Of a DNA stretch of 64,000 nt, positions 21,806-57,063 are shown one piece after another (the first letter of the stretch is position 1; each line of letters opens with the position of its first letter). Under the pieces are notes generated by a model. It was not told where the DNA came from. It saw nothing but the letters and a program-made list of their open reading frames with translations, and made no database searches. Source of the stretch: Deroplatys truncata (lineage: Eukaryota; Arthropoda; Insecta; Mantodea; Mantidae); assembly GCA_030765065.1 (NCBI GenBank), contig CM060990.1:464674321-464738320 (forward strand). Direction: 5' to 3'. Position numbers and translations under genes: made by a program.

Positions 21806-22086
21806 ATTGAATTTTATTTATGGACGCCCTTTAACTGCTGTGGTCCTTAGCGTCCCATTTTATATTGGGCGTGAAAGATCGATACTTTTGCTCAGTGGCC
21901 TCTTTATCAGGTTTGAGGTTCTTTTACGTGCCGTAAATCTACAACACGGGACCACCGGCTTCACTTCCCTTCCGAAGGAAGCAATGCTAAGAATTTTTAC
22001 GACCGAAAAATTCATCGCCCTCCGCCGGGTGTGGACCCGCGGCCTCGGGAACTATAGGCTAGCATAGTAACCACTATACTACGGAG
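21806..22086 (-). repeat. tRNA-derived SINE (family A), copy 3, with complete head
   Basis: The most complete copy. On the minus strand the tRNA-like head begins CTCCGTAGTATAGTGGTTAC, which contains an A-box-like TAGTATAGTGG. A B-box-like GGGTCCACACCCGG follows ~35 nt later. The body has the CTTCCTTCGGAAGGGAAG, GGTGGTCCCGTG and CACGCCCAATATAAAATGGG blocks, and the tail is ATAAATAAAATTCAATT. The internal polymerase III promoter arrangement supports a tRNA-derived SINE. Confidence 0.85.
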
Positions 22087-22319
22087 TAACTCTAACTTTA
22101 ACCCTTTAAGAGGATCGCCTCTTTCTATAATGATTCGGTTTTGACGTTGGTCCCGATTTAAGTATTCTATGTACATTATCTCACCCTCGCTACCTTCAAA
22201 AAACCGAAACGGGCAGCAGTAGGATAAAGGTGGCGTTATAAGAGCAAAAAAGGATGCGGACAACTGATAATATGTAATGTGATATCGTTTGTTCCACGCC
22301 GCCGGCCACGGCCCCCTCC

Positions 22320-22620
22320 TTTGTGGCCTACTCCGAACACCGCCGACCATGCCCAACTCTCCTTTGTGACCGGGTCTGAATTCCGCCCGGCGGAGAATTG
22401 GGACAATGGGCTATTGTACTTTGTGGCCCGGTCTGAATGCCGCCCGGCAGAGTAGAACAATGGGCTATTGTACTTTGTGGCCTGGTCTGAATGCCGCCGG
22501 CAGAGGAGTAGAACAATGGACTATTGAGCTCGTACGAGGACAATAGAACACTCTTCTCGTCGCTAACGGAGGTGCTTTGTGCGTTACTGATACCGGCAGA
22601 CGGAGACCGTCGAACAATGG
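22320..22620. repeat. GC-rich minisatellite, ~55-65-bp units
   Basis: Tandem units share TTTGTGGCCCGGTCTGAATG, CCGCCCGGCAGAG and ACAATGGGCTATTGTAC. About three full units plus degenerate flanking ones are present. The GC-rich, CpG-containing units stand out from the AT-rich surroundings. Short open frames through it are repeat artefacts. Confidence 0.75.
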
Positions 22621-24455
22621 GCTATTGTTCTCGTCGCGTGCCATCATCACCGCCCCCCGCAAATCGATGGAGGAGATAAGTTCTAAAATATCTGTGTCAA
22701 TCAATCAGGTAATGTTCGTCCATGCATAACACCATCTAATGTTGTTGAAAAAATCAAGGATTCATACTGCTAACGTCCCGGTATCGTGCATCTAAAAGGT
22801 GGGACGCTGGTCGTCGATCGGTGATTGCAATTATTCCAATTAAGTCTTTCTTTATTATTACAGTATAAAGAGTATCCCGCTTATCCGCAAATATATTTTC
22901 TCAAACTTAACTAGGTGATTATTACGACTAATAACACTTGTATAATTCTGCTTTGAGGGACACTTTTTGGGCTTATAAGAACATTACATCACTTAGGTAA
23001 ATTAAAAAAATCTATGACTGAAAGGAGTAAGCGTAAATAGCTATTGCGAGACGTTCACGAGTGGTTCTTTCCCGGGAAACCCGACCGCACGCTACCTCTC
23101 TAGACAGCGCTCTCGCGCGAATGGAATGTTTTCCTGACTGGCTCTCTGTTTCAAGCGACAGGTACCTTCTCACAGCGCTCTGGCGGGCACCAGCGGAGGT
23201 TCATTCTTCCGACCTGGAAGGAACAAGGTGGAAGCCCGCCATCTTGTGTTTTTAACACACGAAGGCGGCCAATATAGGTCTTTATTATTCCAAGGAAATA
23301 ACTAGCATAAATCTATTGTAAAGGTGATAAGGAACTTCGCGCTTCAAGATGTTTTTCTAAGGTTTGTTTACACGTAGAGTTGGCTCTGAAAAATAAATAA
23401 ATAAATACAGTTTAGCATTATAGTTGAATAATACATGCAATGCGTTATTTATAAATAAATAAATAATGAAATGTGGAGAGCACCATAAACAAAACATTTC
23501 CTTTGTTGCTCTTTTAATTAACACCGGTCAAAGAGCGATCATAAATAAAAACTATTTTTTTATTCCCGTAAAAAATGAAAAGACGAACGTAACAGACCCG
23601 TGAATGTTTAGACATGCAATGTCTAAAGCGGTATTGAATACCAGCGGGGAATTGAACCCTGAACTCAATCTAAAAAAATACATGACATTTTCAAACATGC
23701 ATTTCTCTCTTAGAAAATATATAAGTATCGGGAAAAGGTGTAAATAACATAGGGAGAGGACTTCAAAACATTCCCCAAAAAGATATGTTGACTACTCCAG
23801 CAGAGATCGAAACATTACGACGACTTCAAATATAAGTTTGATATTCGTTTTAAATTTTTTTCTAAAGACGCACACCAGTGGTCTTCGAGAAATTCGACGA
23901 GTTATTCAGTTGTACACCCCTTGCAAAATATGTTATATATCGATGACGACGGTAAACCAGGGTCCGCTCGGGATTTCCAGTTTCAGGACCATCTGCACGT
24001 CTTTACAGCTTAATTAACGGGTTCCTAACAGCATTCTTGAGTAGAGATAACATCTACAAATGAATGCTTCAAATATAACCGTTTTGGTGGGTTTTTAGCA
24101 ATACATGCATTCAAAAGAATAGCCCAGACTTATACACGCAAGTGAATTTACCCTACAGACACTGGGAACTCCTAAGTCTAGCAATTATAAGACCCCTACA
24201 TCACACCAGGAAAAATATATCAAGAGAAACAGTACTTTCTTTTTTCGTTATTTTCACTCTAAAATTATAGTTAAACAATACAGGCAATACGTTATTTATA
24301 AATAAATAATGAAATATGGAGAGTACCCTAAACAAAACATTCCTTTTGTTGCTCTTTTAAATAACGCTAGTTAAATAGCGCTCATAAATAAAACCCGATA
24401 GAAAATATACAAAGACAGTCGAGGTAAAATACAGAGGGTCTTCCAGAAGAAAAAT

Positions 24456-24650
24456 AACATAGGCGGGACCTTAAAACAGTCGTCGATACAGTATCCCACA
24501 CTCTCACGCAAGCACGCGCATGGGCAGGGACTTTAAAACAGTCATTGTCAATAAAATACCCCACCCACTCACAAAAGCGCGCTCATAGGCAGGAACTTTA
24601 AAACACTCATTGTCGGTAAAGTACCACACCCACCCGCGCAAGCACACTCT
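24456..24650. repeat. ~65-bp tandem array in the left arm (3 units)
   Basis: Three units share GGCAGGGACTTTAAAACAGT and TATCCCACACTC-like ends. The mirrored array at 34054-34279 has four units. Confidence 0.75.
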
Positions 24651-25414
24651 CTCACTCTCTCCTTTGCGCCAGCACAATGCTGCAGTAATATAATTGAAAA
24701 TTCACTGATGCGTTATGCCGGAGACGCCAACGATTTATATAGTAGCTTACACATCCCTTGCAAAAATATGTTGTACACCCTTTGAAGAGGGAAAACCAGG
24801 TCTCCGGAAATTCCACTTTAAAAGACAAGCATAGATGCAGGTCTTTACGGCTTAATGGATGGGGCCCTAACAGCATATTTGAGAAGAGATAACATCGCCC
24901 ATATACCTGGAATGCTTCAAATTTAACACTTGAGTGGGTTTTTAGCAATACATGCATTCAAAGAATAGCCTGCGCGTTATACGGGCAGCAGAATTTCCCA
25001 GCTGACACTGTAAATTCCTAAGGTCTTAAAACTACAGGAATCCTACGTCGCTCCAGGAAAACTATATCAAGAGAAGCAATGCTTTCTTTTTCATTATTTT
25101 TACGCTAAAATTATAGTTAAATGATACATGCAATACGTTATTTATAAGTAAATAATGAAATCTTTATAAGCGCAGGCGCAATATATTTCCTAGAGGGTAT
25201 GGTGTATAGAACCTATAGAAAGCTGTACTTAAACACTCGTAAATATCGCTATTATTTCCATGTATTATTTCCTTCTTCGGTGCGGCAATCAAGTTTATTA
25301 TTATTATCGTAAAGAAAGCTTTTTTGTTTATTCCATTTAAACATACTGGTGTTTCAACCTCCATGTCTAAAAATTATATGATCACGCATCGCTCCACGAT
25401 GATAATCATTAAAT

Positions 25415-25500
25415 AGCAAACTTCTCTGCTAGGTAGCGTCTCTACTTCACATTCGAGGGGTCGCGAGTTCGAATCTCAGTTAGGTGAGTTACCGGATAAG
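25415..25500 (+). repeat. tRNA-like block in the left arm (SINE head)
   Basis: A-box-like GGTAGCGTCTC and B-box-like GAGTTCGAATCTC, followed by AGTTACCGGATAAGG. The mirror copy is at about 33160-33255. There is no closed cloverleaf, so it is a tRNA-derived repeat rather than a tRNA gene. Confidence 0.6.
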
Positions 25501-25925
25501 GGCAAGCCCTCCCATTAACCGTCTTTATATTTGCAGGTGTAATATATTTCCTGGGGTTATGGTGTATAGATCCTGTATAACCTGTACTTAAACATTCGCA
25601 AATATCGCAATTATTTCCAAGTATTATTTCCTTCTTCAGTGCGCAGTCAAGTTTATTATTATTATTACCGCTAAGAACGCTTATTTGTTTACTCCATTTA
25701 AACAGTCTGATGTTTCAGTCCCCAATGTCAAAATTATGAGATCACTATATTGCTCGAGGAAAAAGGGCAACCCAGAGGCTGATATGGAAATGTCTTTTGT
25801 CGGAAAAGACTTCATAGTTTGATCTTAAGAAATAAGATTCGTAACTAGCGCCATCTGTAATCAAGTTAGTCCTCTAAGACGACTACGCAACTAAGGTCAT
25901 TTTCGTGTAACACACTAACTAATCG

Positions 25926-26150
25926 ACCGGAATGGTTCAGACGGTAACCTCTATGGACCGCATTCGGAGGTTCTGAGTCTAATTCCTAGCAGCTGGCTCT
26001 CCTGATCTCCGGTTTTTTCGGAGTTTTCTCTGGACGCAAGGCGAATGCTGCGAAGGTTCATTACAACCGCGAATATTTCCTCCATTCCGTTTCACCTACA
26101 TTTTCATTTTACTCCACCGTTCACCTCCTCGGGTCTGACCGGTAATATTT
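25926..26150 (+). repeat. tRNA-derived SINE (family B) in the left arm
   Basis: The tRNA-like head (GGTTCAGACGGTAACC ... GAGTCTAATTCC) is followed by CTCCGGTTTTTTCGGAG and GGCGAATGCTGCGAAGGTTC. The same architecture is seen at 45055-45245. The mirror copy is at about 32545-32755. Confidence 0.65.
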
Positions 26151-26539
26151 AATACTGAACACCGGAACTCAAGCGATACAAATGCTTTATGAATAAAAAA
26201 AACGTAGATGTTATTGCATGTGGCTAAAAGGATAGGAATGGGTGGTGTTTAAAACATGTGTTTTCACAAATTCAAAGTAAAATACAGGCAAGATCCTCAA
26301 AACATGCATTTTCCTAGAAGATAAGAGGCATATGTCCTGTGTATAGAGCTCTATACTTAAACATCCGTAGAAGGAAGGGGAAGCCATTCGAGAATATCGC
26401 ATCAGGCATTTTTCTTTACGTGTCTTTGAGGCAAACCTGCTTCTACGGCCTGGGTTATAGATGAATAAAATACTTGATGAATGACAGTCTTATTTAACTT
26501 GGGTAAAAGGTGTTGAAACCATGTTTTGATAAAAACTAC

Positions 26540-26800
26540 TTCGCGGTAACGTGTGAGGCCTGCATTCGAGATGTCGCCGGTTCGATTCCCAGTGACCACC
26601 CTGTCTGACTTTAGCATCTGCATGAAGGTCTACGAATACATAAATACAAGCGCTCACTCCCTCAAATCACCCGAACCTGCGCGAGGACGTACGAACATCA
26701 CCGAACAATAGTAACCTTCTCTGCGTGGTAGCGTGTGTACTCATTCGAAAGGTCCCGAGTGCGAATCTCGGTTAGACGAGTTACCGGATAAGGCAAACCC
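26540..26800 (+). repeat. Two further tRNA-like blocks in the left arm
   Basis: The first has CGCGGTAACGTGTG and CGGTTCGATTCCC (about 26550-26595). The second has GTGGTAGCGTGTGTAC and GAGTGCGAATCTCGG (about 26723-26783). Both are mirrored at about 31890-32130. A 73-codon frame running across them on the outward strand is identical in the two arms, but it reads through tRNA-like DNA and is probably not coding. Confidence 0.6.
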
Positions 26801-27041
26801 TCCCATTACGAGTCTTTGTAAGCGCAGGTATAATATGTTCCATATGTGGCATGGTGTATAGATCCTATATAACACTGTACTTAAGCATCCGTAAATGAAA
26901 GCTCATTCGCATGTATCACATGAGCATTTTCTTTAGTTGTTATGGATATATGTAGAGAATTTTAAGTAATACTTTATAAGAAGTTAACTATCGCAGTATT
27001 TCTAAGTATTATTTCCTACTTCAGTGTAGTAATCAAGTTCA

Positions 27042-27042
27042 C

Positions 27043-27074
<32 letters not shown>
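27042..27074. repeat. (ATT)n microsatellite
   Basis: About 11 units. It is much shorter and imperfect in the mirror position of the right arm (about 31610-31630). Confidence 0.9.
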
Positions 27075-27076
<2 letters not shown>

Positions 27077-27652
27077 GTCAAGAAAGCTTGTTTGTTTATT
27101 CCATTTAAACAGACTGGTATTTCAGCCTCTATGCCTAAAATTACAGGATACCTACATCGCTCCAGGAAAAGTTTATCAAGAGAAACAATACATTCTTTTC
27201 ATTACCGACACTAAAATTATTGTTAAATAATACATGCAACACGTTACTTATACAATCATATGTATGAGGTTGTGGTTCCAGGTGATGGCATCAGCGACAC
27301 CAGCCACAATCATATCATGATAGAATAACACCTGATCGTAGATGGGTGCTTCAAATATAATACTGGAGTGAATATTTTGGTAATATAATAATAAACAATG
27401 AATTATAGCAATAATGTATTCAAAAATAATAATAGTCTAGAGTGCTATACAGCTGGATTTTCCCTACATGCATATTATCGTATGACGCCGGAATTACCCA
27501 TAGCTGGTTTAAACGCGTTTTATGAAATACACCCTGCTCGAGGCTAGCTTTCCTCCACGACTCCTTCTACTCGAGTGGGTGGAGTAGCCAACCAAAATCG
27601 ATGTATTTTAGAACGTCCCGCCTCTCGCTTCCAGTTTTATATGTAAAAATGA

Positions 27653-27686
27653 TATAAAAGACTCAGCTTCTCCGGCAATTTTCACT
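27653..27686 (+). promoter_or_regulatory. Inward promoter of the left arm (TATA + initiator)
   Basis: TATAAAAG at 27653-27660 and an arthropod-type initiator TCACT at 27682-27686, with the initiator A at 27684, 31 nt after the first T of the TATA box. The same two motifs with the same 31-nt spacing are kept in the right arm, where surrounding bases differ. That argues for function rather than chance. Confidence 0.75.
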
Positions 27687-28773
27687 CTGTCTTGTGAGAA
27701 CACATCGACCTAAGTACTCTTCTTGTTCTTTACATTAATCTGTGACATTTCATCAAATATCATGTCTGGTAAGTTGTAAAAGCATCTTATTTACTTTAAA
27801 AGTTAACTTATTACTACATGCATTTAACTTATAAATGTGTTCTTGTTTTTTTGAATGTCGTGTTTATATACAAATAGTTGAACTTGGTTACGTGGCGTTG
27901 TAACGTGATGTTACGCTGTTAGGACGGTCCAGGAAGCATCACAGGTAAAGGTCTGGGTCCCTACCCTTTAAAGATTTGAACCTGGAGTGTGTTCCAACCA
28001 ACCTCGCGTGTACGGATCCTGAGACCAATCGCTGTCTAGATGACTAATGTTTCCAGAGAGCAACCTTTCCCACTACTATGCATAGGTCGAACTTCCCTCC
28101 ACCGTTCTCATCCGAGATATATACATAGGTGCGTGTTATGTATTCATTTGTTCGCTTTTAATTCCTTCAGGCGTATTTATTTAATTTCTTTTACAGCTTT
28201 ATCATGAGCTATTGCTAGAGAAAATCGGTGCAATCAACTTATGAGAAACTCAATTTTTCATACATTACACATGGAGGGAAACGGGTCATTAAATGCTGTA
28301 TATGTGGTCGGATTTTAAAGAATCGTTCTTTGTCAAGACTTAAGCTTCAAAGAGCAAGGTGTTATACTGAATCGGCTCTTTCTCCTACACTTGAGTCTCC
28401 TGTAGGCGAGGAATCAGAATACAACGGAAGTCGTGTGCTTACTAATTTGACGGTTCCATATGGTGAGAATTCAGTGATATCTACGCTTGAAGATCCGAAG
28501 ATGTATAGAGCGGAATGTTATACCGGATCGGGTCTCTGTCCTTCACTTGAGTCTACTGCGGGTGAGGAATCTGGATACAGCGGAAGTCGCGTGTTTACTA
28601 ATTTGAAGTCTCCATATGATGATAATTCAGTGATATCTACGCTTGAAAATCCGAATAGACTGGGAAATATATTGAGGTTACTAATTGCATCGAAAAAGGC
28701 TGGTATTAGCGATCATACGATGGAGATTGAAGAACTTATAAGTAAGCTAAAGGCATCTAAAGTTAAAGCATGA
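27684..28773 (+). CDS. Core gene L: Cys-rich N-terminus with internal 52-residue duplication
   Basis: I do not recognise this gene. The predicted first exon runs 27684-27768, ending ATG TCT G before a strong donor GTAAGT. The intron would end at a CTAG acceptor at 28218, after a pyrimidine stretch with a better-looking TTTTACAG at 28196. The long open frame (about 185 codons, 28219-28773) contains KCCICGRILKNRSLSRL, a Cys cluster that could be half of a zinc finger. Two 52-residue repeats follow (nucleotides 28351-28506 and 28507-28662) sharing GEES, YSGSRVFTNL and NSVISTLE. The C-terminus NILRLLIASKKAGISDHTM and a Lys-rich end look helical. The open frame starts in phase 0 while ATG TCT G leaves one base, so either a 1-nt change near the A run at 28221-28224, a different acceptor, or an untranslated leader must be invoked. 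No ATG opens the frame locally. A poly(A) signal-like AATAAA lies near 29042. Confidence 0.5.
28351..28662 (+). repeat. Two 156-bp tandem units within core gene L
   Basis: Units 28351-28506 and 28507-28662 are in frame (52 codons each). Shared blocks are GAATTCAGTGATATCTACGC or close variants, and CGGAAGTCG. Confidence 0.9.
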
Positions 28774-29461
28774 TAGGAACAAGAAGTTGTGTGAATCAAT
28801 TTCGACGATAGTTAACAGGAACTTTGAAATATCAAGAACTTATACTTATAGAATACATTATCCAGACATTGCAGAGATGCTTAATTTCTTTACGGAAAAC
28901 GTGTTTACATGCAGGTCTCTTTCTCTGTGATGTATATGATTATATAATTGAGTGTTTAGGAGCCCTAGACTGTTATCATTATCTTTAGGAAATATGTATG
29001 TATGGTTTTTATTAAGGATTGTAATAGGATAATGTTTATAAAATAAATAATGTTTATATTACATAGTTCTCATTTTTATAAATCTTATTATACACTTCAT
29101 ATCACACCATCAAATATTAGATTGTTCTGGCTTCTAGTTTCCCATTTATTCAAGCGTCTATTAGAAATAGTTCAATAAATTTTTTGTTGTAGATTTCATA
29201 CAGCATCAATTTTAAGATTTGCATATCCTTTAAACAATTATGCAATTATTTATGAAATGAATGGTATCGACAAGTAAAACAATAATAATGAGCAAATAAT
29301 TTATAGTATTGCTATATTCTACACACGCAAATGTTTTCTGCTTGCAGGTTCCACGCTACCCGGTGCTGCAACTCCTCATTGAATAAGATCTTTGGGAGTT
29401 TTTGAGAATGTTCCTAATACATTTCTGTTTTGGTTGTTTTACGCTATCTCGTTCTTCCTCT
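28774..29461. other. Core intergenic region between convergent genes
   Basis: AT-rich 3' flanks of the two convergent core genes, with several AATAAA motifs (for example near 29042 and 29174). No further gene is seen. The minus-strand frame at 29356-29586 overlaps the predicted last exon of core gene R but in another phase. Confidence 0.45.
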
Positions 29462-31001
29462 TCATTTGACTTCATCCCTGCATTCCTGTAACACACATTC
29501 ACATTATTTGCAGCTTGTTTTAGGTATATGCTTTGAGGTAAAGAATCATTGAAAGTGCTATTACACTTCTTTCTGCATGACCACACCCAGGGTACAACCT
29601 AGACGTTATTTACACATATTTGTTTTAATCCAGTGATGCATACTTTAGACAGATGATATTCTACTGCAAATTATTTCCAGCTTGTTGTAGGTATATGCTT
29701 TGAGGTAAAGAATCATTGAAAGGACTGTTAAACTTCTTTCTGCATGACCTCACCCAGACCATAACCTAGACGTTAATTACACATATTTTTTTACAACACT
29801 GATGCAGACTTTAGACGAATGTTATCCTACTGCAAATGATTTGCAGCTTGTTGTAGCTATGTGCTTTGAGGTAAAGAATCATTGAAAGGACATCAAACGT
29901 CTTTCTGCATGACCTCACTCAGACTACCACCTAGAAGTTATTTACACATATTCGTTTTAATACAGTGATGCATACTTTAGACAAATGTTATCCTAGTGAA
30001 GCGTGTATTTATAAACTCAATGGTTGTAACTATAAATGAAACAAGAAAGGTTAGCTGAATTATTTCTACAAACCTTAACAGGAAGAAAAGACCATTTACA
30101 TGTGTTAAACCTGCCAGCTGGTACTAATCCGTGATATACCATTTGAAACTTCCCTGGCATTTCCTCCAACTGTTGGCTTGTTAGGGTTGAATATCTTGAT
30201 GGAAGAAAAACCTGATTTTCGCCTAAGACTGCAACCACTCTAGCACCGTATCTCGTGTCAATTTTTCTTGTGACGTTTATATTATAACGCTCCTCTGGCT
30301 GAAGATCCTGTAGTCTGAACAGTCGGGAAAATGCTATTCCCAGCCAGTGTGTAAAGTTGAGTTGCCAAACTCTCTGCATTAGGAACAGAAAACATTTATT
30401 AGAGAATGTATTTTATAAAAAAAATTATTTGAAAGTCACGACATTATTAACATTTTATGTGTAATACAATAATAATGATATGTGTAAATATAAAGGAGGT
30501 TCTTATTAACTAATGAAGTTCATTAAGCACTCTACTTTTTTCGATTTAAATGTTTTAATATAATGTAAACCTTTATTTATTAGAGCGAATGATTCGCACA
30601 ACAGACTTTTTTGCAATATTCTAAAAGCAAAAACGTTAAGAAGATAATAAACTAATTTTATTTTTCCCTAGAAATGATATAATTCACACGCTAAATATCC
30701 CTTATTTAAACATCTAGAAAAATAAGTTTCCTTAAAAGTGAATAGCGAACTAAACTGCTTGCATTTGAGAAAAATGAAATACACACAGCTAGGTATTAAC
30801 TGTTCAATGTTCAACGCTTTGTATATAAACACCGACATTAAAAAAACACATTTATAAGTTAAATGCATAGAGTAATAAGTCAAATTTTAAAGTAAATAAG
30901 ATGCTTTTATAACATACCAGACGTGATGTTTGATGAAATTTCACAGAGCGATGTAAAAAAAAGAAGAGTACTTAGGTCGATGTGTTCTCACATCACAGAG
31001 T
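29462..31001 (-). CDS. Core gene R: small three-exon gene, conserved-looking protein of unknown function
   Basis: The predicted transcript starts at 31001 (initiator of the right arm). Exon 1 is 31001-30918, donor GTATGT. Exon 2 is 30373-30074, with acceptor CCTAATGCAG and donor AAG/GTTTGT. Exon 3 starts at 29485 after acceptor GTGTTACAG and reaches a TGA at 29462 in phase. Exon 2 encodes about 100 residues, including LFRLQDLQPEERYNI, TRKIDTRYGARVVAVL, NQVFLPSRYSTLTSQQLEEM and GKFQMVYHGL. The compact beta-rich pattern (TRYG, then a hydrophobic strand, then VFLPSRY) reminds me of small OB-fold-like proteins scattered through insect genomes, but that is recall and not proof. The start is damaged or unused: the exon 1 ATG is ACG in this arm (30924-30922), and ATG-TCT-G phase would not match the exon 2 frame. 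Confidence 0.5.
29503..30000. repeat. 166-bp tandem array (3 units) inside the last intron of core gene R
   Basis: Units begin at about 29503, 29670 and 29836, giving periods of 167 and 166. Shared blocks are GCTTTGAGGTAAAGAATCAT, TTTCTGCATGACC and GTGATGCATACTTTAGAC. The array lies entirely between the predicted donor (30073) and acceptor (29486) of gene R. Confidence 0.9.
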
Positions 31002-31032
31002 GAAAATTACCGGAGAAGCTGTCTCTTTTATA
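31001..31032 (-). promoter_or_regulatory. Inward promoter of the right arm (TATA + initiator)
   Basis: On the minus strand TATAAAAG begins at 31032 and the initiator TCACT has its A at 31001, the same 31-nt spacing as in the left arm. The following leader (TGTGAGAACACATCGACCTA) is also shared. Confidence 0.75.
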
Positions 31033-31859
31033 TAATTTTTTCCATATAAAACTGGAGGCGAGAGGCGTGACGTTATAAAATATATCGACTTTAATTGGCT
31101 ACTACACCCCCCCCCCCGAGTAGAAGGAGTCGTGGAAGGAAGCTAGCCTCGCGCAGGGAGTATTTCATAAAACGCGTCTAAACAAGTTATGGGGAATTCC
31201 GGCGATAATATTTATGTAGGGGAAATCCACCTGTATATCACGCTAGACCATTATTATTTTTGAATACATTCTTGTTATAATTCATTGTGTATTATTACAT
31301 TACCAAAATATTCACTCCAGTTTTATATTTGAAGCACTCGTCTGCGATCAAAGTGTTATTCTATCATGATATGATTCTGAGTGGTGTCGCTGATGCCATC
31401 ACCCGGAACCCCAACCTCACACATGGGATTGTATAAATAACGTATTGCATGCATTATTTAACAATAATTTTAGTCTCGGTAATGAAAGGAATGTATTGTT
31501 TCTCTTGATATAATTTTCCTGGAGAGATGTAGGTGTCCTGTAATTTTTAGACATGGAGGCTGAAACACCAGTCTGTTTAAATGGAATAAACTAATAAATT
31601 TTCTTGGCGGTAATAATGATAATAATAAAAATAGTGAACTTGATTGCTACACTGAAGAAGGAAATAATACTTAGAAATACCGCGATAGTTAACTTCTTAT
31701 AAAGTATTACTTAAAATTCTCTACATATATCCATAACAACTAAAGAAAATGCTCATGTGGTACATGCGAATGAGCTTTCATTTACGGATGCTTAAATGCA
31801 GTGTTATACAGGATCTATACACCATGCCACATATGGAACATATTATACCTGCGCTTACA

Positions 31860-32130
31860 AAGACTCGTAATGGGAGGGTTTGCCTTATCCGGTAACTCGT
31901 CTAACCGAGATTCGCACTCGGGACCTTTCGAATGAGTACACACGCTACCACGCAGAGAAGGTTACTATTGTTTGGTGATGTTCGTACGTCCTCGCGCAGG
32001 TTCGGGTGATTTGAGGGAGTGAGCGCTTGTATTTATGTATTCGTAGACCTTCATGCAGATGCTAAAGTCAGACAGGGTGGTCACTGGGAATCGAACCGGC
32101 GACATCTCGAATGCAGGCCTCACACGTTAC
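31860..32130 (-). repeat. Two tRNA-like blocks in the right arm
   Basis: Mirror images of 26540-26800, nearly identical. On the plus strand the B-box complements appear as CCGAGATTCGCACTC (about 31906-31920) and GGGAATCGAACCGG (about 32086-32099). Confidence 0.6.
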
Positions 32131-32544
32131 CGCGAAGTAGTTTTTATCAAAACATGGTTTCAACACCTTTTACCCAAGTTAAATAAGACTGTCATTCATC
32201 AAGTATTTTATTCATCTATAACCCAGGCCGTAGAAGCAGGTTTGCCTCAAAGACACGTAAAGAAAAATGCCTGATGCGATATTCTCGAATGGCTTCCCCT
32301 TCCTTCTACGGTTGTTTAAGTATAGAGCTCTATACACAGGACCATACCTCTTATCTTCTAGGAAAATACATGTTTTGAGGATCTTGCCTGTATTTTACCT
32401 TGAATTTGTGAAAACACATGTTTTAAACACCACCCATTCCTATCCTTTTAGCCACATGCAATATACATCTACGTTTTTTTATTCATAAAAGCATTTGTAT
32501 CGCTTGAGTTCCGGTGTTCAGTATTAAATATTACCGGTCAGACC

Positions 32545-32755
32545 CGAGGAGGTGAAGGGTGGAGTGAAATGAAAATGTAGGTGAAACGGAATGGAGGAAA
32601 TATTCGCGGTTGTAATGAACCTTCGTAGCATTCGCCTAGCGTCCAGGGAAAACTCCGAAAAACCCGGGGATCAGTAGTACCAGCTGCCGGAAATTACTCA
32701 GAACCTCCGAAAGCGGTCCATAGCCGTTACCGTCTGAACCATTCCGGTCGATTAG
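32545..32755 (-). repeat. tRNA-derived SINE (family B) in the right arm
   Basis: Mirror of 25926-26150, diverged by several substitutions. Confidence 0.6.
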
Positions 32756-33159
32756 TTAGTGTGTTACATGCAAATGACAGTTGTGTAGTCGTTTTAGAGG
32801 ACTATCTTGATTACAGACGGCGCTAGTTACGGATCTTCTTTCTTCAAGATCAAACTATGAAGTCTGTTCCGACACAAAGGCATCCCCACATCAGGCTCTG
32901 GGATGCCCCTTTTTCCTGGAGCAATGTAGGGATCTTATAATTTTTTAGACATTGGGGACTGAAACGTCAGACTCTTTAAATGGAATAAAGAAATAAGCGT
33001 TCATAGCGATAATAATAATAAACTTGATTGTCGCACTGAAGAGCGAAATAATACTTGGAAATAATTGCGATTGTTACGAATGCTTAAGTACAGGTTATAC
33101 AGGATCTATACACCATAACCCCAGGAAATATATTACACCTGCGCTTATAAAGACGGTTA

Positions 33160-33255
33160 ATGGGAAGGCTTGCCCTTATCCGGTAACTCACCTAACCGAG
33201 ATTCGAACTCGGGACCTCTCGAATGTGAAGTAGACACGCTACCTCGCAGGGAATC
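33160..33255 (-). repeat. tRNA-like block in the right arm
   Basis: Mirror of 25415-25500, with the B box as CCGAGATTCGAACTCGGG on the plus strand. This is cleaner than its left-arm partner. Confidence 0.6.
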
Positions 33256-34053
33256 TTGCTATTTATTTATTATTACCGTGGAGCGATGCGTGATCGTATA
33301 ATTTTTAGACATGGAAGTTGAAACACCAATCTGTTTAAATGGAATAAACAAATAAGCTTTCTTGACTATAATAATAATAATACATTTGATTGCCGCACTG
33401 AAGAAGGAAATAATACTTGGAAATAATTGCGATAGTTACGAATGTTTCAGTATAGTGTTCTACAGGATCTGTACATCATAACCTTTAGGAAAGATATTAC
33501 GCCTGCGCTTATAAAGGCGTCATTATTTATTTATAAATAACGTATCGCGTGTATCATTTAACTATAATTTTAGCGTAAAAAATAATGAAAAAGCAAGTAT
33601 TGCTTCTCTTCATATAGTTTTTCCTGGAGCGACATAGGGTTCCTGTAATTTTTAGGCCTTAGGAATTTCCAGTGCCTGTAGGGGAAATTCTGCTGCCCAT
33701 ATAACGCGCAGACTATTCTTTGAATGCATGTAATGCTAAAAACCCACTCAAGTGTTAAATTTGAAGCACTCCCAGGTATATGGGCGATGTTATCTCTTCT
33801 CAAATATGCTGTTAGGACTCCATCTATTAAGCCGTAAAGACATGCATCTATGATAGTCTTTTAAAGTGGAATTTCCGGAGATCTGGTTTTCCCTCTTCAA
33901 AGGGTGTACAACATATTTTTCAAGGGATTTGTAAACCACTATATAAATCGCTGGGGTCTCCGGCATAACGTATCAGTGAATTGGCAATTATGCTGCAGTA
34001 TTGTGCTGGCGCAAAGGAGAGAGAGTGCGCGTCCTGGCGCGGATGTGTGTGGT

Positions 34054-34279
34054 ACTTTACCGAAAATGACTGTTTTAAAGTCCCTGCCTATGAGCGTGCT
34101 TGCGTGATTGGTGGGGTACTTTATTGATAATGACTATTTTTAAGTCCCTGCCTATGAGCGTGATTGGGTGTGGTACTTTATCGGCAATGACTGTTTTAAT
34201 GTCCCTGCCTATGCGCGTGCTTGCGTGAGTGGGTGGAATACTTTATCGACAACGACTGTTTTAAAGTTCCCGCCTATGT
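34054..34279. repeat. ~65-bp tandem array in the right arm (4 units)
   Basis: Four units sharing TACTTTATCGGCAATGACTG or variants and AAGTCCCTGCCTATGAGCG. One more unit than the left-arm array. Confidence 0.8.
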
Positions 34280-35853
34280 TATTTTACTTCTGGAAGACCT
34301 CTGTATATCACCTCGATGTCTTTATATATTTTCTATTGGGTTTTATTTATGAGCGCTCATTAACTAGCGTTAATTAAAAGAGCAACAAGGGGAATGTTTT
34401 GTTTAGGGTACTCTCCATATTTCATTATTTATTTATAAATAACGTATTGCATGTATTGTTTCACAATTATTTTAGAGTGAAATAACGAAAAAAGGAAGTG
34501 TTGTTTCTCATGATATAATTTTCCTGGTGCAATGTAGGGGGTCTTATGATTTTTAGACTTAGAAATTCCCAGTGTCTGTAGAGAAAATCCACTCGCGTGT
34601 ATACGTCTGGGCTATTCTTTTGAATGCATGTATTGCTAAAAACCCACTCAAACAGTTATATTTGAAGCATTCACTTGTAGATGTTATATCTACTGAAGAA
34701 TGCTGTTAAGAACCCGGCTATTAAGCTGTAAAGACGTGCAGATGGTCCCGAAACTGGAAATTTTGCGTGGACCCTGGTTTACCGTCTTCAGCGATATACA
34801 ACATATCTTGCAAGGGGTGTGGAACTGAATAATTCATTATCGAATTTCTCGAAGACCACTGGTGTGCGTCTTTAGAAAAACTTTTAAAAGAATATCAAAT
34901 TTATATTTGAAGTCTTCATAATTGTTCGATCTCTCTGCTGGAGTAGTCAACATATCTTTCGATACGGAATGTTTTGAAGTCCTCTCCCAATGTTATTTAC
35001 ACCTTTTCGCGATACTTATATATTTTCTAATAGAGAAATGCATATTTGGAAAGGCCATGTATTTTTTAGCTTGAGTTCACGGTTCGATTTCCCGCTGGTA
35101 TTCAATATCGCTTTAGACATTGCATGGCTAAACAATCACGGGTCTGTTACAGTCGTCTTTTCATTTTTGTTATGTGAATAAAAAATAGAGCTTTTATTTA
35201 TGATCGTCCTTAACCGGTGTTAATTCAAAGAGCAACAAAGGGAATGTTTTGTTTAGGTACTCTCCATGTTTCATTATTTATTTATTTATAAATAACGCAT
35301 TGCATGTATTAATTAACTATAATGTTATTCCGTATTTATTTATTTTTCAGAGCCAACACTACGTGTAAACAAACCTTAGAAAAAATCTTGAAGCGCGAAG
35401 TTCCTTATCACCCTTTTAAATGATTTATGCTAGTTATTTCCTTGGAATAATAAATACCTATAATCGCCGCCTTCGTGCGTTAAAAACCCAAGATGGCTGG
35501 CTCCCGCCTTGTTCTTCCAGGTCGGAAGAGTGAACCTCCGCTGGTGCCCGCCAGAGCGCTGTGAGGAAGTGCCTGTCGCTTGAAACAGAGAGCCAGTCAG
35601 GAAGTACATATTAGAAGAAATGTAATAAGTTCCCTTCCATCCTGTATAGCTCGAAAAGAATCCTGCGTACTACATTCTCTGTCAGCTTAGTAAGGTGCTT
35701 GAAAGTTATAGATTGAAATACCAACATTTAAGCTATCAAACATAGAGCATAAAAGATGCGTTTTCATATATGATGTGGAGCAATGCTTCTTTCTCGTACA
35801 AATGAGTTAACAGGAGCAACCTTAGTCATACTTTTACTTTCTCTACCATGTAA

Positions 35854-36330: not shown

Positions 36331-36559
36331 CTCTAGTTGCCGAGATCGCGGGTTCAAACCCGGCGGAGGGTGGTGGATTTTTTCGGGCACAACAATCCTT
36401 AGCATGGCTTCATTCGGAAAGGAAGTACACCCGGTGGTTTAGTGTCTTAGATATACGGCACGGAAAAGAACCTCAAAACTTATAGAGGCCTCTGAGCAAA
36501 ATTTCCGGTCTTTCACGCCCAATATAAAATGGGACGCTAAGGACCATAATAGTATAGAA

Positions 36560-38149: not shown

Positions 38150-41100
38150 ACTCTTTGTAACCATCAACAACACCCGCGTACTACTAGTCTCCGCGTACAA
38201 CCAACCAGGCGACCTAGAAATAGACGACCTGGATGCACTCCTCAACCATCACCCACAGGTACTTCTCATGGGTGACCTAAACTGTAAGCACGCACTCTGG
38301 AACTGCCGCACCTCAAACACTGCCGGAAACAAACTCCTTCAATATGAGAATCGGTCCGACTTTATTATCTATGCACCCACTGACCCTACGTTTGTATCGC
38401 TCAACCGAAACCTGCACCCAGACATTCTGGATATAGCACTTGCCGGAAATATTGCCTTTAACATTGAGATCACCACAATTAATGATCTCCCCTCAGACCA
38501 CCTGCCAGTGATAGTAACCACCAGAGGCACCCTTACCCAAGACACTCAAGTACCGCACCACAACTTCAACAAGGCCGACTGGCAACTCTTTAGCTCCACC
38601 ATAACGGATCAGCTCAAACTAACGCCCATCACCTCAGAAGCAGAACTAGAACAAGCCACAGCACACCTTGAGAATACCATTAAATATGCCATATCGCGAG
38701 CCGCACCAATCAGCATCCAGAGCAATCGTAGCCCCGCCCCTCCCGCAGACCTAAAGCGCCTCACAGCACTGCGCAACAGAGCCAGACGCGCCTGGCAGCG
38801 CTCAAGACACTACGCTGACTTAGACGACTTCCGACGACGCAATGCTGCAGTGAGGGAATGCACTGCAGAGCACATTACAAACCAATGGAGTGCCACTCTT
38901 ACGAACCTTGATTTGGAAAACCAAACCGTCTGGCGTATCGCCAAATGCCTCACTAGGCAACCAATGTCTGTTCCTCCATTACACCTCAACCAACGCATAG
39001 CAACCACAAACACGGAGAAAGCTGAAGCCCTTGCAGACGCTCTCCAAGAAATCCTCGTGCCAAACCCTCAGCCGATTGACCACGCCTTCGTCGCAGATAC
39101 CCTGGCAATTACAACTGATTTCCGAACGCGCCAAACGCGTAACAAACTCCGAAATACCTGCCCCTCTGAACTTGCCTGGATGATCAAACACCTCCACAAC
39201 AAGAAGGCCCCTGGCCCAGATTCTATTCCTAACATTGCGCTGAAGCGTTTACCACTCGCCGCCCTTCAGGCGCTGTCCAACATCTGCAACTTTGGCCTAC
39301 AACAAGGATATTACCCTGAGCTATGGAAAAATGCCAAAATTCTACACTTTCCTAAAAAGAACAAAGACAACACGAACCCTAACAACTATCGACCCATCAG
39401 CCTACTCAACTCTCTGAGCAAACTACTGGAAAAGGTCATACTCAAACGGTTAAATGCACATCTTGCGCGACAGAATATCCTAATTCCAGAACAGTTCTGC
39501 TTCCGCGCCAAACACTCTACCACATTGCAACTCCTCCGTACCACTGAACACATCACGCAGGGGTTTAACGCGCGAAAAACCACAGGAGCCATATTCCTCG
39601 ATCTTGAGCGGGCGTTCGACCGGGTATGGCACGAGGGACTACTGCGTAAACTCAACCAATACAACTTCCAAGACATCGCACTCAAACTCATTGCCAACTA
39701 TCTACACAACCGCAAATTTCAGTGCTCTGTTAACTCCTCTCTCTCCACGCTCCGCCCAGTCCTGGCTGGGGTCCCCCAGGTAAGTGTACTGGGACCGGTC
39801 CTCTTCACAATATACATGAATGACATCCCAAAAACTAACAACACGCTCCTCTCACTCTATGCAAACGACACTGCCCTAATGGCACAGTCCGGTGACTTAT
39901 GGTACATTAATTCTCGCCTTCAGCGAGCACTTTCTGCACATGAGGAATGGCTGACCAAATGGCGCATTAAAGTCAACCCAACCAAGTCACAAGCTATAAT
40001 CTTCACCAAGCGGGTCAAACACCGCCAACATGCGCGAACGCTGCCACCAATACAACTATTTGGTACTCCCATAGCATGGACTAACTCTGTTACCTACTTA
40101 GGCATTAAGATGGACCAGGGCCTCACCTGGAAAGACCACGTAATTACCGTCCGCAGAAAATGCAATGCGCAGCTATGCAAACTATACCATCTTATCAACT
40201 ACAACAGTACCCTTCAGATTCGACTAGGCCTCACTCTCTACAAAACGCTACTCCGACCCATACTCACCTACGCGGCCCCCGTCTGGGGGTATGCAGCTAA
40301 AAGCCACATCAATACGCTCCAATCCCTCCAGAACAAAATCCTCCGTATCATAGCCAGGGTGCCCAAACTTGCACCTTCCAAACTCCTACACCAAGAACTC
40401 AGGATGCACACCATTGAGCAATTCATCAAAAAACTAGCAGCCGACCTGTACACTAACTGCACCAAGAGCACAAACCCCCTCATCCAAACACTAGGCACCT
40501 ATGAAACCACCATCAACAAACACAAACGACCACTAGCGCTATTTGACCGCAACCTGTCCGATGAAGTACCCATTGAAGATATCCTCGAACACTTAAACCG
40601 GTTTATACCTCCTTAGCTATGCCACATTCACACACACTATTAATACTCTTAAGTTGCAGGAAACCATACTGAACTGGAACTTTAAAACAACGGTCTGCCC
40701 CTGCCAATGCGCCAACCCATAAAGGAACCGTCTATAGGCCACCCACCATCACAGGAACACTGCAGCAGCAGCTCGGCAACCAAAGGTAAAATCCCGCCAC
40801 ACCTTTCATTACGATCACTTGCATGATGTTAACACCCGCGCCATACCATTTAATTTTAAGCCGAAGCTCATAACGCATCCCTGTCAATCCCACCCAACCT
40901 AACCCGTAATAACCACCGAGCGCCAGGCAGGGCCTGCCATGGCTGGCGCCGGTAAACCCAACCAGGCACGCCTGCATGTTCTGCATGCTCGCATGAGTAG
41001 TTTAACTTACTAACCGGGGTGCTTCCGCGGAACCCGACCATGTTTAACTCACATCTTTCTCCACGCACTAGCACGTCACTACTAACAAAGCACCCCCCTA

Positions 41101-41206
41101 GGTGCATGTTAGAACTAACAGCATGGGGAGACGATGTAGCCTCAGGATGATCGTCACCGGGGGCGGCGGGTGTGGAGCCGCCCCTTTAAAAAAAACGAAA
41201 AAAAAG
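38150..41206 (+). mobile_element. 5'-truncated Jockey-clade LINE (copy J1)
   Basis: Starts abruptly inside the endonuclease domain. The first base shared with the longer copy at 57064-62561 is near 38150, matching about 59530. Its ~590-bp 3' UTR matches that of the second copy (shared AACCGGGGTGCTTCCGCGGA or variants, and AACAGCATGGGGAGACGATG). It ends in an A-rich tail at 41188-41206. Such 5' truncation is usual for target-primed reverse transcription. I cannot see a target duplication. Confidence 0.88.
38154..40616 (+). pseudogene. Jockey LINE ORF2 (partial endonuclease + reverse transcriptase), long but catalytically altered
   Basis: About 820 codons stay open without interruption, unusual for this window, but there is no native start because the N-terminal endonuclease is truncated. 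Motifs: LLMGDLNCKHALWNCR (endonuclease), SDHLPV, NKKAPGPDSIPNIALKRL, NYRPISLLNSLSKLLEKV, FLDLERAFDRVW (motif A Asp), GVPQVSVLGP (motif B, with Gly to Val at the normally invariant GVPQGS) and LYANDTAL (motif C). The first catalytic Asp of YADD is Asn here, while the second copy has YGDD. The C-terminal thumb-like region (TYLGIKMDQGLTWKDHV) and the tail to IPP are complete. There is no RNase H, as expected for Jockey. The altered motif C implies a dead enzyme despite the open frame. Confidence 0.9.
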
Positions 41207-50699: not shown

Positions 50700-51335
50700 T
50701 AAGTGATTGTTGCGAGAAGATTAGGAAAGAAAAAAGTTACGAAGGAAGATAGTGGATGTGACTAGAGTGGTGCAAAACTGACGAAACAAGATGGTGGATG
50801 GCGCAAGGTGGAAAATGTTACGAAACAAGATGGCTGTTGGAACTAGAGAAAAATGAATGCAGTAAGATGGTGAAATAATTTGGAATACGAATTTTGAAAA
50901 ATGTTAAATACTAGGGAAAAGAAACAACTTACATGATTTTGAGAGGTGGTAGAAATAGCGAAAAACACAGAATGGATAATGCGTATAGAAGAATAATGCT
51001 TTATTGACAAAATACATGGATTAACCCGCAAAATAGACGGGTAAAACGTTACAACATAAGATGGCGGATGGCGTTAATTTTGCGGTAAAAGTTACGAAAG
51101 AAGATGGTGAAATGGCGCAATGCGGAAAGTGTTACGAAACAAGATGGCTGTTGGCACTAGTGAAAAATGAATGCTTGAAAATAATGAAATAATGTGGAAT
51201 AAGAAATTTGGAAAAATGTTAACAAAATAGGGAAAAGAAGAAACCTACATGATTTTGTGAGGTGACAGGAATAGCGAAAAATCTAGATTGGTTAAACCGT
51301 ATAGATAAATAATAACTGTAGAGATTAAGCGCGAG
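50700..51335. repeat. ~317-bp tandem duplication
   Basis: Two units share TGTTACGAAACAAGATGGCT (50817-50836 and 51132-51151), AAAATGTTA, GGGAAAAGAA and ACATGATTTTG. Both are rich in AAGATGG motifs. The second unit overlaps the outer limit of the palindrome visible in this window. Confidence 0.75.
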
Positions 51336-51689
51336 ACACGTTAGCTTAAGAAAACAGGCTGGAAAAATGTGGCGTTAAAGGCGGAGATATTGGATTTAAT
51401 GATGGAAAACGAGCCAAGGTGACGAGGGAAAAGTGCTTGAGATTAATTGATTCAAAATTGGGTGTGGATTGAGAAAAAAAAGGAAAGGCTGGTATTGTTG
51501 TCCTTAGGCGGACGGAATTTATTAATGCGTTACGACTAGCCGTTAAAAATAGGAAAATACGTTTTTTTACACAAAAATAAGCTATGGGATGACGAAACAA
51601 CAAAAGCTTAAACACAAAGAGAAACATGATATAACGGATACGGAATAACTTTGCTGTGCGGAAGCACAAATGCAGAGGAGCAAAAGAAA

Positions 51690-52049
51690 TAAGTGACTAG
51701 GAATGTCGATGTACACGCACACAGGTATTTACACTTGCAACGTATGAGAACACGAAGAACGATATTTATAAAAAAAAATGCCAAGGCACGATGGACAGAC
51801 AGGAAAGCAGCATATGCTGAGAAAGCTAAGTGTGTATTATTGCGTGTGGGAAATAAAGCACTGCCTGAAGAAGTCGACAGCAAAGAAAAACGTGGCGTAA
51901 ATTGCCAAGCGATAATAGCATTGGTGCTTGCTAACGGATGTCTGCGGTTTAAGATTACACAAGCTAGCGGGACCTTGACGGTAGAAAGCTATAATATTTT
52001 ATGGGACGAAAAAACACAAATTAAGGAAGGTAAACGGAATACGCACTAG
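51690..52049 (+). other. Open frame in the left palindrome arm, mirrored on the right
   Basis: A ~119-codon inward-facing frame opening with GTG (ending RNTH, stop at 52047-52049). The mirror frame is at 63256-63609. I count about 16 amino-acid differences and one gap in ~118 positions, most nucleotide differences being replacement changes. That argues against selection on the protein. I do not recognise the sequence. It is more likely a chance frame than a gene. Confidence 0.3.
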
Positions 52050-52779
52050 CAACAACAGCGAAGGAACCATAAATGCAGGCTATTAGCGTATAAATAATAT
52101 GTAAATGCAAACATAGTTTCTGCAGGTTAGCAAACAGTTATGATAAACACGCTACAAGATATTAGATGCTAAATATATTGCGGTGTATAATGCTGTGTTT
52201 AGATGACAATTATTGTCGGAAATGTAATGCTTGGGTTGCTGATAGTTAAGAATTGGTGCCCGAAACAGAAAATAATCATAGAAACGAATGAATACCATAC
52301 AATGAAATTGAAAATAGGTAAATATAGAGCTTAAATAAAAAGGAAATAAAACCACATTAAAAAGAAGGGTGTAATATGTGTAGTGTATTGTATTGAATAA
52401 AATTAGTAAGCGAACAACATTACAAAAATTGAATTTTAAATGGTTGTGTGCAAAACATATATAAGATGCGGTATGTGTGGTGTATTACAAATTAATAATA
52501 AACCAAAGCACAGAAGAACATTCGCAAGTTATAAGCGAAGTCTGTTGTACTTGCAGTGAAAATCTGGTATTTGCTGGCGAAGTTTGGAGAGGTCTTGAAA
52601 ACAGTGAACTTCGCACCTGAAGCAAGGGTGCGTCCTACGAGGATTGTGCACTTGGGCGTTACAGCAGGAGCAGCGGTGCGCTGTGCACGAAATGCCTGGA
52701 TTCCTGGACGTTAGATCCGCACTATGTGAGGGGTAAATTGGAGTGAATATACATGGGGAAAACACTGGAGGGGGAAAAG

Positions 52780-53230
52780 TGCCCCACATCCGCCGGAACC
52801 ATTGGAGGGGAAAAGTCCGTTGCCCCATATTCGGCGAAAGCGTTAATTGCACGTGCAGGAAGGAGTACATCCTGCTGGAGGGGAAAAAGTCTGTTGCTCC
52901 ACATCAGGCGGAAGCGTTAATTGCACGTGCAGGAAGGAGTACATCCGCAGGAAACCGCTGGAGGGGAAATAGTCTATTGCTCCACATCAGCCGGAAGCGT
53001 TAATTGCACGCGCTGAAGGAGTACATCCGCAGGAAACCGCTGGAGTGGGAAAAGTCCGTTGCCCCACATCCGCCGGAAGCGTTAATTGCACACGCAGGAA
53101 GGAGTAAATCCGTTGGGAAGTTGATGATAACATCCGCCGGAAGCATTAATTGCATACGCAGGAAGGAGTACATCCGTTGGGAAGTTGACGACCATATCCG
53201 CCGGAAGCGTTGATGATGCTACACACAGGA
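52780..53230. repeat. ~80-110-bp tandem array, left arm
   Basis: Units share GGCGGAAGCGTTAATTGCAC or GCCGGAAGCGTTAATTGCAC, GCAGGAAGGAGTACATCC and GTTGCCCCACATCCGCC. About five to six units. The mirrored array in the right arm (about 56800-57020) has only two to three. Confidence 0.8.
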
Positions 53231-53789
53231 AGTAGCACATCCGTGGGAAAGAACCGCTGGTGTGAAAAGACTGTTGGGTTGTTACCACCAGACGTTGCTT
53301 TGTTGCTTCAATATGGAGCTGTCATCGTCTTCTTTTTGGACGATAACCCTGTGTTCGTTGACGGTGAACAGCCAATCACCGTGTATATGATGGAGTAGAA
53401 TGTAGGGTGGGACATTGTCCAAATTGAACCAAAGCACATGAGGACTTGATTTATGTTTTCGTGCATTTTAGCTACGAAATGTACTGTTGTTCGTAGAAAA
53501 TGATGTATAATCCCCTTGTGGCAACACATTGGAAACACTGGTGAGACGATTGTTGTTCTTCATCACTGTCACGTGTTCTATGGGTGTGGGTAGAAAAACA
53601 GCGCGTATCGACTCAAATTAAGCACGCAGTGATAAAATATGATTTAAAACAGGGCGAACGACCGAAAGGGGGTACGTAAGGATAGAGTAAGGACTCAAAT
53701 AGAGGGGTAGAGGAAGAAGAAGCGTTGCAAGGTAAAGCATAGGAAATGCAACAGTGGGACATGAGCTGTAACAGTATTCTAAAGCCTAC

Positions 53790-54655
53790 CGACCTGGGAA
53801 AACTACGAAAAAAGATAGAAAGAGGTTTAGCAACTGCTGCGGCATTCGCCTACCGAACAGAGAAAACCCACGAAAAAGTAGAAAGAGCTTTAGCATTCGC
53901 CTACAGAATAGGGAAACCCACGAAAAAGCAGCTTCGAGCGCGAATGTGTGTGGTGTGTGTTTGTGTGCACTCAGTATGCACCCACCAACAAGGGAAACCC
54001 ACAAAATAGGAGAATGATCATAATCAATAGCCTACCGATCAGGGAAAACCAAGAAAAATAGAAAGAGCTTCGGCAACAGCTGCAGCAAATACCTACGACC
54101 AGGGAAACCCCGAAAAAACAAAAAGAGCTTAGTGCGCGAATGTATGTGTGTGCACTCAGCATCCGACCACCAACAAGGGAAATCCGCGAAATAGGAGACA
54201 ACTCAATTGCCTACCGACCAAGGAAAACACGAAAAAGCTGGGAAACCCCGAAAAAATAGAAAGAGGTTCGTGCGCGAATATATGTTTGTGTGTGTGCACT
54301 TAGCATCCGCCCACCAACAAGGGAATACCACGAAATAGGAGAAAGAACTTCATCAATAGCCTATTGACCAGGGAAAACCACGAAACAGTAGAAAGACCTT
54401 CGGCAACCGCTGCAGCAGTCGCCTACCGACCAGGCAAAAGCTATAAAAAAAGTAGAAAGAGCTTGCATTCGTGTACCGACCAAGGAAAACTTCGAAAAAA
54501 TAGAAATAGCTTCCAGCGCGAATGTGTGTGTGTGTGTGTGTTTGTGTGTGCACTCAGCATCCACCCACCAACAAGGAAAAACCATGAAACAGGAGAAATA
54601 ACGTACTCAATTGCCTATCGACCAAGGAAAAGCAAGAAAAAGCTAGGAAAACAAA
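53790..54655. repeat. Inner tandem array, left arm
   Basis: Repeats of CTACCGACCAGGGAAAACCA, CGAAAAA and TAGAAAGAGCTT, interleaved with GT-rich runs (for example 54521-54549) and CACCAACAAGGGAA. About 200-260-bp higher-order units. Confidence 0.85.
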
Positions 54656-56235: not shown

Positions 56236-57063
56236 AATACTCATAAAGCCCATGCCCAACTGTTGCATTTTCTATGCTTTACCTTGCGACGCTTCTTGTT
56301 CTTCTTCTACCCCTCTATTTGAGTCCTTGCCCTATCCTTACATACCCTCTTTCGGTCGTTGGCCTGTTTCAAATCATATTTTATCACTGCGTGCTTTCTT
56401 TGAGTCGACACCCGCTGTTTTTCTACCCAAACCCATAGAACACGTGACAGTGATGAAGAACAACAATCGTCTCACCAATGGTTCCAATGTGCTGCCACAA
56501 GGGGATTATACATCATTTTCTACGAACAACAGTACATTTCGTGGCTAAAATGCTGGAAATCATAAATCAAGACCTCATGTGCTTCGGTAGATGCCTATCG
56601 GTCAATTTGGCCTATGTCCCACCCTACATTCTACCCCATCATATACACGGTGATTCGCTGTTCACCGTCAACGAACACAGAGTTATGGCCCAAAATGAAG
56701 ACGATAACAACTCCATATTGAAGCAACAAACCAACGACTGGTGGTAACAACCCAACAGTCTTTTCACACCAGCGTTCTTTTCCATGGATGTGCTACTTCG
56801 TGTGCAGCATCATCAACGCTTACGGCGGATGTGGTAATCAACTTCCCAACGGATATACTCCTTCCTGCGAGTGCAATTAACCCTTCCGGCGGATGTGATC
56901 ATCAACTTTCCAACGGATGTACTTCTTCCTGCGCGTGCAGTTAACGCTTCCGCCGAATGTGGGGCAACGGACTTTTCTCCTCCAGTGGTTACGGCGGATG
57001 TGAGGCACTTGTCCCCCCTCAGTGTTTTCCCCATATATATTCACTCCAATGTTTAATCCTCAC
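56236..57063. repeat. Right palindrome arm between inner array and LINE
   Basis: Reverse complement of about 52745-53760, including GTGCTGCCACAAGGGGATTA (mirror near 53509-53526) and GAACACGTGACAGTGATGAA. Ends at the LINE insertion point in ATTCACTCCAATGTTTAATC. Confidence 0.8.

Follow-up and report, generated by a model that had tools for sequence, protein, structure and literature searches.

Within a 64,000-nucleotide stretch of the genome of the mantis Deroplatys truncata, the whole of which we call the window, lies a large element made of two inverted arms around a unique core with two converging genes, L on the plus strand and R on the minus strand. We find that it is one copy of a dispersed family whose ends are mostly of AGTAGT type and whose two-ended copies mostly have 6-bp flanking duplications, as in Maverick (Polinton) transposons. 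The reading that we favour, with a probability of about three in four, is that this is a large and numerous family of non-autonomous palindromic transposons, served in trans by an integrase of Maverick/Polinton type, whose arms would act as expression modules and would be homogenised at copying.

Copies, termini and target duplications

That the element is mobile and repeated had been proposed in the initial annotation and is borne out by the genome search, which excludes a single locus; copies with shared ends and flanking duplications are dispersed through the assembly (4.29 Gb in 818 contigs, the window lying on contig C16 of 707 Mb, or 16.5% of the bases). A piece of the arm finds at least 47 matches in the genome (the best 40 of 1345 candidates scored) and the R protein at least 150 (the best 150 of 7483 scored). 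The copies compared here are A (C16:187.59 Mb), B (C4:247.79 Mb), C (C16:227.28 Mb) and D (C16:211.67 Mb), together with two called C2 and C7, and those with two ends span ~5.6–17 kb. The centre of copy B, at about C4:247798746–247802962, holds 4.2 kb unrelated to the L/R core and with no frame longer than 127 codons. At C4:104898268–104899091 an outer piece of the arm stands in three tandem copies on one strand, possibly the start of satellite formation.

In the seven outer ends compared, the copies cease to resemble one another at AGTAG or close to it. Copy C2 carries AGTAGTAAAAAGG at both ends and copy C7 AGTAGTAAAAAG at both ends, and the motif (AGT)2//(ACT)2 is found at both ends of these two copies and in most of the 50 genome matches to the terminal pattern AGTAGTAAAAAGRTGGGGNCTTGAG (up to 2 mismatches; the reversed control gave 0). 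The family mostly has AGTAGT; comparison of the outer ends gives AGTAGG in the window (22218–22223, plus strand), AGGAGT at the right end of A and AATAGT at the left end at C16:86.78M. With AGTAG taken as the terminus, the 6-bp flanks agree at 5/6 positions in A, 2/6 in B, 6/6 in D, and 5/6 in each of C2 and C7, and among 120 left/right flank pairings the observed sum is reached by the true pairing alone. The anchor of AGTAG plus 6 bp was chosen after A, B, C2, C7 and D had been seen and was then tried on two new inward-facing pairs (36 bp per end), picked once the rule was fixed; these lie at C16:86.78 Mb and C16:131.73 Mb and gave GTTGAT/GTTGAT and TACACT/TACACT, both 6/6. A 6-bp target site duplication with at least 5/6 agreement is present in six of the seven two-ended copies. 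An 8-bp duplication in copy D, TACCGGCA, with the element starting at GTAGG, was dropped on re-anchoring to AGTAG plus 6 bp after C2 and C7.

The terminus matches are concentrated on C16, which holds 32 of the 50 (binomial p = 7e-14), compared with 18 of the 76 polymerase loci listed in the search described below (Fisher p = 7.5e-6). Among the matches listed, the share of this contig is 31/47 for the arm and 78/150 for R; the arm and R matches were ranked by likeness to the window copy, a bias that the terminus pattern alone escapes.

The arms of the window copy are 88.5–90.6% alike, as against 78–85% to copies A–D. In one copy on C16 the two R-bearing arms (L051 and L052) agree at 98.0% over 3.3 kb, with 90–94% to five other loci, and a copy at C1:61.17 Mb shows 100% identity between its arms in the 179 bp seen, with 1.27 kb of a 24-nt minisatellite between them. 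Thus, in the younger copies and in the window, arms resemble their partner in the same copy more closely than they resemble arms of other copies; in older copies this is less clear. Either a foldback intermediate during copying or strong conversion from arm to arm would produce such likeness. The minisatellite, at the centre of its palindrome, occupies positions 189–1461 of L063 (C1:61171901–61173540), and its frames are open in several phases. Among the 150 R matches listed, neighbouring pairs less than 20 kb apart all face inward (+ then −; 32/32), so the arms of those copies include the R gene and, in L051/L052, also L. The arrangement in the window differs, with a single core and the outer arms as the repeats.

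Arms and genes of the window copy

Inverted arms around a unique core had been described from the start and are real; the outer ends then given, 23131 and 35603, are wrong. The arms pair end to end at ~90% identity, with one conversion-like tract at 96–100% (26212–27065, plus strand, against 31611–32463), and their core-side borders at 27886 and 30805 are sharp. Copies A, B, C and D all extend past the equivalent of 23131, as does the window's left side, where 22218–23130 is homologous to their outer 0.9 kb. The left arm is therefore 22218–27886 (plus strand, 5.67 kb), rather than 23131–27883, and its part from 23131 to 27886 pairs with the right arm. The right flank of the window has no homology to the outer 0.9 kb of copies A–D, so the right arm (30805–35603, minus strand) is truncated at 35603, with ~0.9 kb gone. 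The motif TTCCTGACTGGC, previously read as a sharply bounded terminus, marks the deletion break of this arm instead; no target duplication is found when 23131 and 35603 are taken as the ends, because 35603 is that break. Inverted repeats kilobases long, with internal repeats, make up most of the element, and the rest of the window has no match to 23131–35603 (blastn, 1e-3). The repeats shared by 21841–22057 and 36331–36546 are of another family, which is present also near 2.3 and 7.3 kb.

At its inner edge each arm carries TATAAAAG, a leader, a 7-nt first exon and a splice donor. In the left arm the TATA box, facing L, is at 27653–27660 and the first exon, ATGTCTG, at 27762–27768 (both plus strand), followed by the donor GTAAGT. 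The TATA box of the right arm, facing R and aligned to that of the left, is at 31025–31032, and the first exon, found there by arm alignment with a mutated start (ACGTCTG), at 30918–30924 (both minus strand), followed by GTATGT. The core between the arms (27887–30804) holds on the plus strand the second exon of L (28197–28773), with the acceptor TTTTACAG before 28197, an open frame of 184 codons at 28219–28773 and a 156-nt internal duplication at 28342–28653. On the minus strand it holds the main exon of R (30017–30379), whose frame covers this interval and whose acceptor, TAATGCAG, starts the exon from 30373; the conserved domain of this exon reads ..DLQPEE.YNI..RKIDTRYGARVVAVLG..QVFLP.RYSTLT.. 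A putative last exon of R, a tail ending in a stop, lies at 29359–29598 (minus strand), and a similar tail, often with stops, stands beside R in other fetched R loci. Three tandem 166-bp copies (29503–29995) carry the start of this tail exon.

Both converging frames thus exist as first annotated; neither is intact as a gene in the window copy. The left first exon of L joined at 28197 hits TGA five codons on, and the sole in-frame ATG past the acceptor (28204) runs into TAG at 28216. For R, the first exon and the main frame are out of phase and the start codon is ACG instead of ATG, so this copy is dead; it is an old, broken (fossil) member of the family.

The genes can be followed further in other copies. 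We examined 20 R regions (19 other loci and the window), of which 18 have a recognisable domain start, and the R acceptor is a good one, ~71 nt ahead of the conserved domain. Splicing ATGTCTG in silico at this acceptor gives an in-frame, stop-free join in 8 of the 18 regions, two of which (L051 and L052) are the arms of one copy, and in 7 of the 8 TATAAAA stands ~106 nt upstream of ATGTCTG. As far as sequence can tell, the arm supplies the promoter and the start codon of R, onto which the first exon would be spliced. For L a similar layout served by the left arm is probable; a match to L stands opposite R in 13 of the 19 other loci, and many of these matches have stops or shifts.

The ratio of nonsynonymous to synonymous substitutions (dN/dS) in R has a median of 0.34 (range 0.07–1.53; 77 of 78 pairs with dS >0.02); the 13 sequences were chosen as open, which favours low ratios, and the pairs are not independent. 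Differences at codon positions 1/2/3 number 384/185/578. The comparison shows that R is under coding constraint. Neither L nor R has a Pfam match over the curated cut-off, a PDB match better than E 0.25 or relatives in IMG/VR, and the protein collection has no match to either as a single sequence. With a profile of R, three metagenomic proteins are matched (E 9e-6, 2e-3 and 0.47; the best 8000 candidates scored), the first two of which, P0001 (37% identity) and P0002, are unnamed and lie on contigs of ≤2.3 kb; these matches suggest that R is part of a larger family absent from Pfam. R may also resemble small arthropod proteins with an OB-like pattern. Structure models of R are too poor for use, with a mean predicted local distance difference test score (pLDDT) of 44.3 and 43.2.

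Other transposons surround the element. Two copies of a reverse-transcriptase element (long interspersed nuclear element, LINE), which we take to be Jockey, form a direct pair 87% alike at 38154–41205 and 59533–62561; one frame has an IS4-type transposase domain and is presumably piggyBac, and a match to a Ty3 capsid near the element is weak, under its own cut-off. A second repeat forms an inverted pair 92% alike at 51296–52730 and 62562–64000 and abuts one of the LINE copies, and 52700–57000 is densely filled with diverged local repeats that run in either direction. A scan for sigma-70 promoters was set aside as irrelevant in an animal genome.

Proposed source of the integrase and alternative explanations

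In the mechanism that we propose, a retroviral-like integrase of Maverick/Polinton type would cut and join the AGTAGT...ACTACT ends, leaving the 6-bp target duplications, and autonomous Mavericks elsewhere in the genome would provide this enzyme in trans. The giant arms would be integrase substrate and gene-expression modules at once, the TATA promoter and tiny start-codon exon of each arm serving, by splicing, one of the converging core genes L and R. Both arms would be made or homogenised together at copying, by hairpin/panhandle copying or arm-to-arm conversion, and would drift apart after insertion. We infer the integrase from the ends and duplications alone; that it comes in trans, how the element is copied and what R and L might do are likewise proposals from sequence.

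The element is not itself an autonomous Maverick, because the defining genes are lacking. With no frame longer than 184 codons, the window's element cannot encode a polymerase or an integrase; neither a polymerase nor, from the frames and the Pfam results for L and R, a retroviral-type integrase was found in it, and what was examined in the other copies was L, R and, in copy B, the centre. An earlier suggestion that the element is like an integrated DNA virus fits in so far as the ends and the target duplication are of Maverick/Polinton type, and fails in that no viral gene is recognised in the element. Possible donors are numerous. PF03175 covers the polymerase of Mavericks and also other protein-primed polymerases; a search of the genome with it finds at least 152 matches (the best 76 of 11882 candidates scored), in frames running up to 1350 codons without stops, and because of their number and length these frames are probably Mavericks. 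The frames often have 1261–1281 codons with equal scores, which suggests recent activity of Maverick-like elements.

Several observations weigh against this explanation. The arms of copy A are mainly 85–87% alike (pieces 79–91%) and those of copy B 81–90% (inner parts 81%), in both cases scarcely, if at all, more than arms of different copies resemble one another. In copy B no target duplication is seen, the flanks agreeing at only 2/6 positions. No copy was seen with both AGTAGT-type ends and a polymerase or integrase, and the PF03175 frames are themselves putative Mavericks. Of the 76 polymerase loci listed, none comes closer than 30 kb to any of the 150 listed R matches; each list covers only a small part of thousands, so this evidence is weak. 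As to the genes, the first exon is frame-shifted in 6 of the 18 R regions (the window included) and the exon or acceptor was not found in 4; the window's R paired with L045 or L047 gives dN/dS >1, and constraint on L is at most weak, with dN 0.069 and dS 0.111 in one pair and 0.196/0.271 in the internal duplication.

A more specific form of the same explanation, with which it can hold jointly, is that the family lives as a Maverick satellite, in the form of a linear episome that the protein-primed polymerase of Mavericks would copy, that might be packaged, and whose own replication R and L would aid. The Maverick ends and duplication agree with this, as do the many long viral-type polymerase frames, the near-identical arms of two younger copies and a constrained small protein, R, with distant metagenomic relatives (E 9e-6 and 2e-3). 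No relatives occur in IMG/VR and R is modelled only at pLDDT 43–44, and we consider the satellite possible but rather unlikely. Equally tentative is its fullest version, a hyperparasite of Mavericks that would borrow both integrase and protein-primed polymerase as a palindromic linear satellite, remake identical arms at each round and encode its replication or packaging helpers in R and L, with their promoters and start-codon exons lying in its terminal repeats; it would be an animal counterpart of the transpovirons associated with virophages.

Target duplications in Mutator and foldback elements range up to 11 bp. The element might instead be of foldback type, from the Mutator (Mutator-like element, MULE) or P (Galileo) superfamily, with expanded repeats and its transposase lost; no MULE transposase was found in the window's element, in its frames or by Pfam. 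Tetris and Tm1 also have long composite arms and internal repeats and no transposase (PMC4079207, PMC3169594), and MuDR has a pair of convergent genes and promoters in its repeats (PMC3310237). The duplications of our element are of 6 bp, compared with 8–10 bp for Tetris and Tm1, its AGTAGT termini are those of Mavericks, and one survey puts the longest repeat of an arthropod MULE at 1193 bp (PMC13359780). Because its duplication is of 6 bp and not of the 8–11 bp of Mutator/MULE or foldback elements, we set the family apart from these and hold a foldback origin to be distinctly improbable.

A chromosomal inverted duplication, whether a segmental palindrome or a pair of genes, might without any transposon explain arms kept alike by a conversion-like tract between unrelated flanks. 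It is refuted, to the point of being very hard to credit, by the occurrence of copies on many contigs, which have their ends in common and are flanked by target duplications. Long palindromes are prone to mis-assembly, and a false inversion join has a negligible chance of being the cause when the window's arms differ by ~10%, A, B, C2 and C7 likewise have their outer arms inverted, and 32/32 close R pairs face inward.

Comparison with known elements

Mavericks stand on the border between transposons and viruses. A numerous family that has their ends and no recognised Maverick genes would be a natural substrate on which to learn what the integrase recognises, and would bear on whether Mavericks carry parasites of their own. 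By combining terminus, promoter and start-codon exon, the arms offer an unusually compact means of expressing two genes, and the 98–100% likeness of the arms, where seen, in two younger copies, against differences of 6–10% between loci, makes palindrome copying directly testable. Among the titles and abstract openings surveyed, with subscription papers and repeat databases outside the scope, we found no non-autonomous or satellite Polinton of an animal with kilobase arms and genes.

Like the family, Teratorn is large and mobile, has long inverted repeats and carries additional ends internally (PMC6431247); it is a herpesvirus–transposon fusion of 41–182 kb with 18-bp terminal repeats, and is unrelated. 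The foldback elements FB, Tetris, Tm1 and Galileo share very long composite inverted repeats, internal repeats and a transposase that is often missing, and the two repeats of one Tm1 element are on average 93% alike (PMC4079207, PMC3169594). Tetris copies are reported to be without conserved frames, whereas R is constrained.

MuDR has repeats of ~215 bp and 9-bp duplications. Its ends are other than those of the element, and it encodes a transposase. In the element, unlike MuDR, the repeat holds the start-codon exon itself, which splicing would add; common to both is a pair of convergent genes whose promoters are within the terminal repeats. In maize these promoters drive the two genes (PMC3310237), so that the premise of the initial annotation, that the terminal repeats of transposons lack duplicated promoters, is wrong as a generality.

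The closest comparison is with Mavericks. The inverted repeats of vertebrate Mavericks are of 46–1447 bp, compared with 5.7 kb here, and in place of a recognised polymerase, integrase and capsid our element has two small converging genes with their first exons in the repeats. Vertebrate Mavericks have the end motif (AGT)2//(ACT)2, 6-bp duplications and lengths of 12.7–24.6 kb (PMC8097293), and it is in its AGTAGT termini, its 6-bp duplication, its inverted terminal repeats and its comparable size that the mantis family agrees with them.

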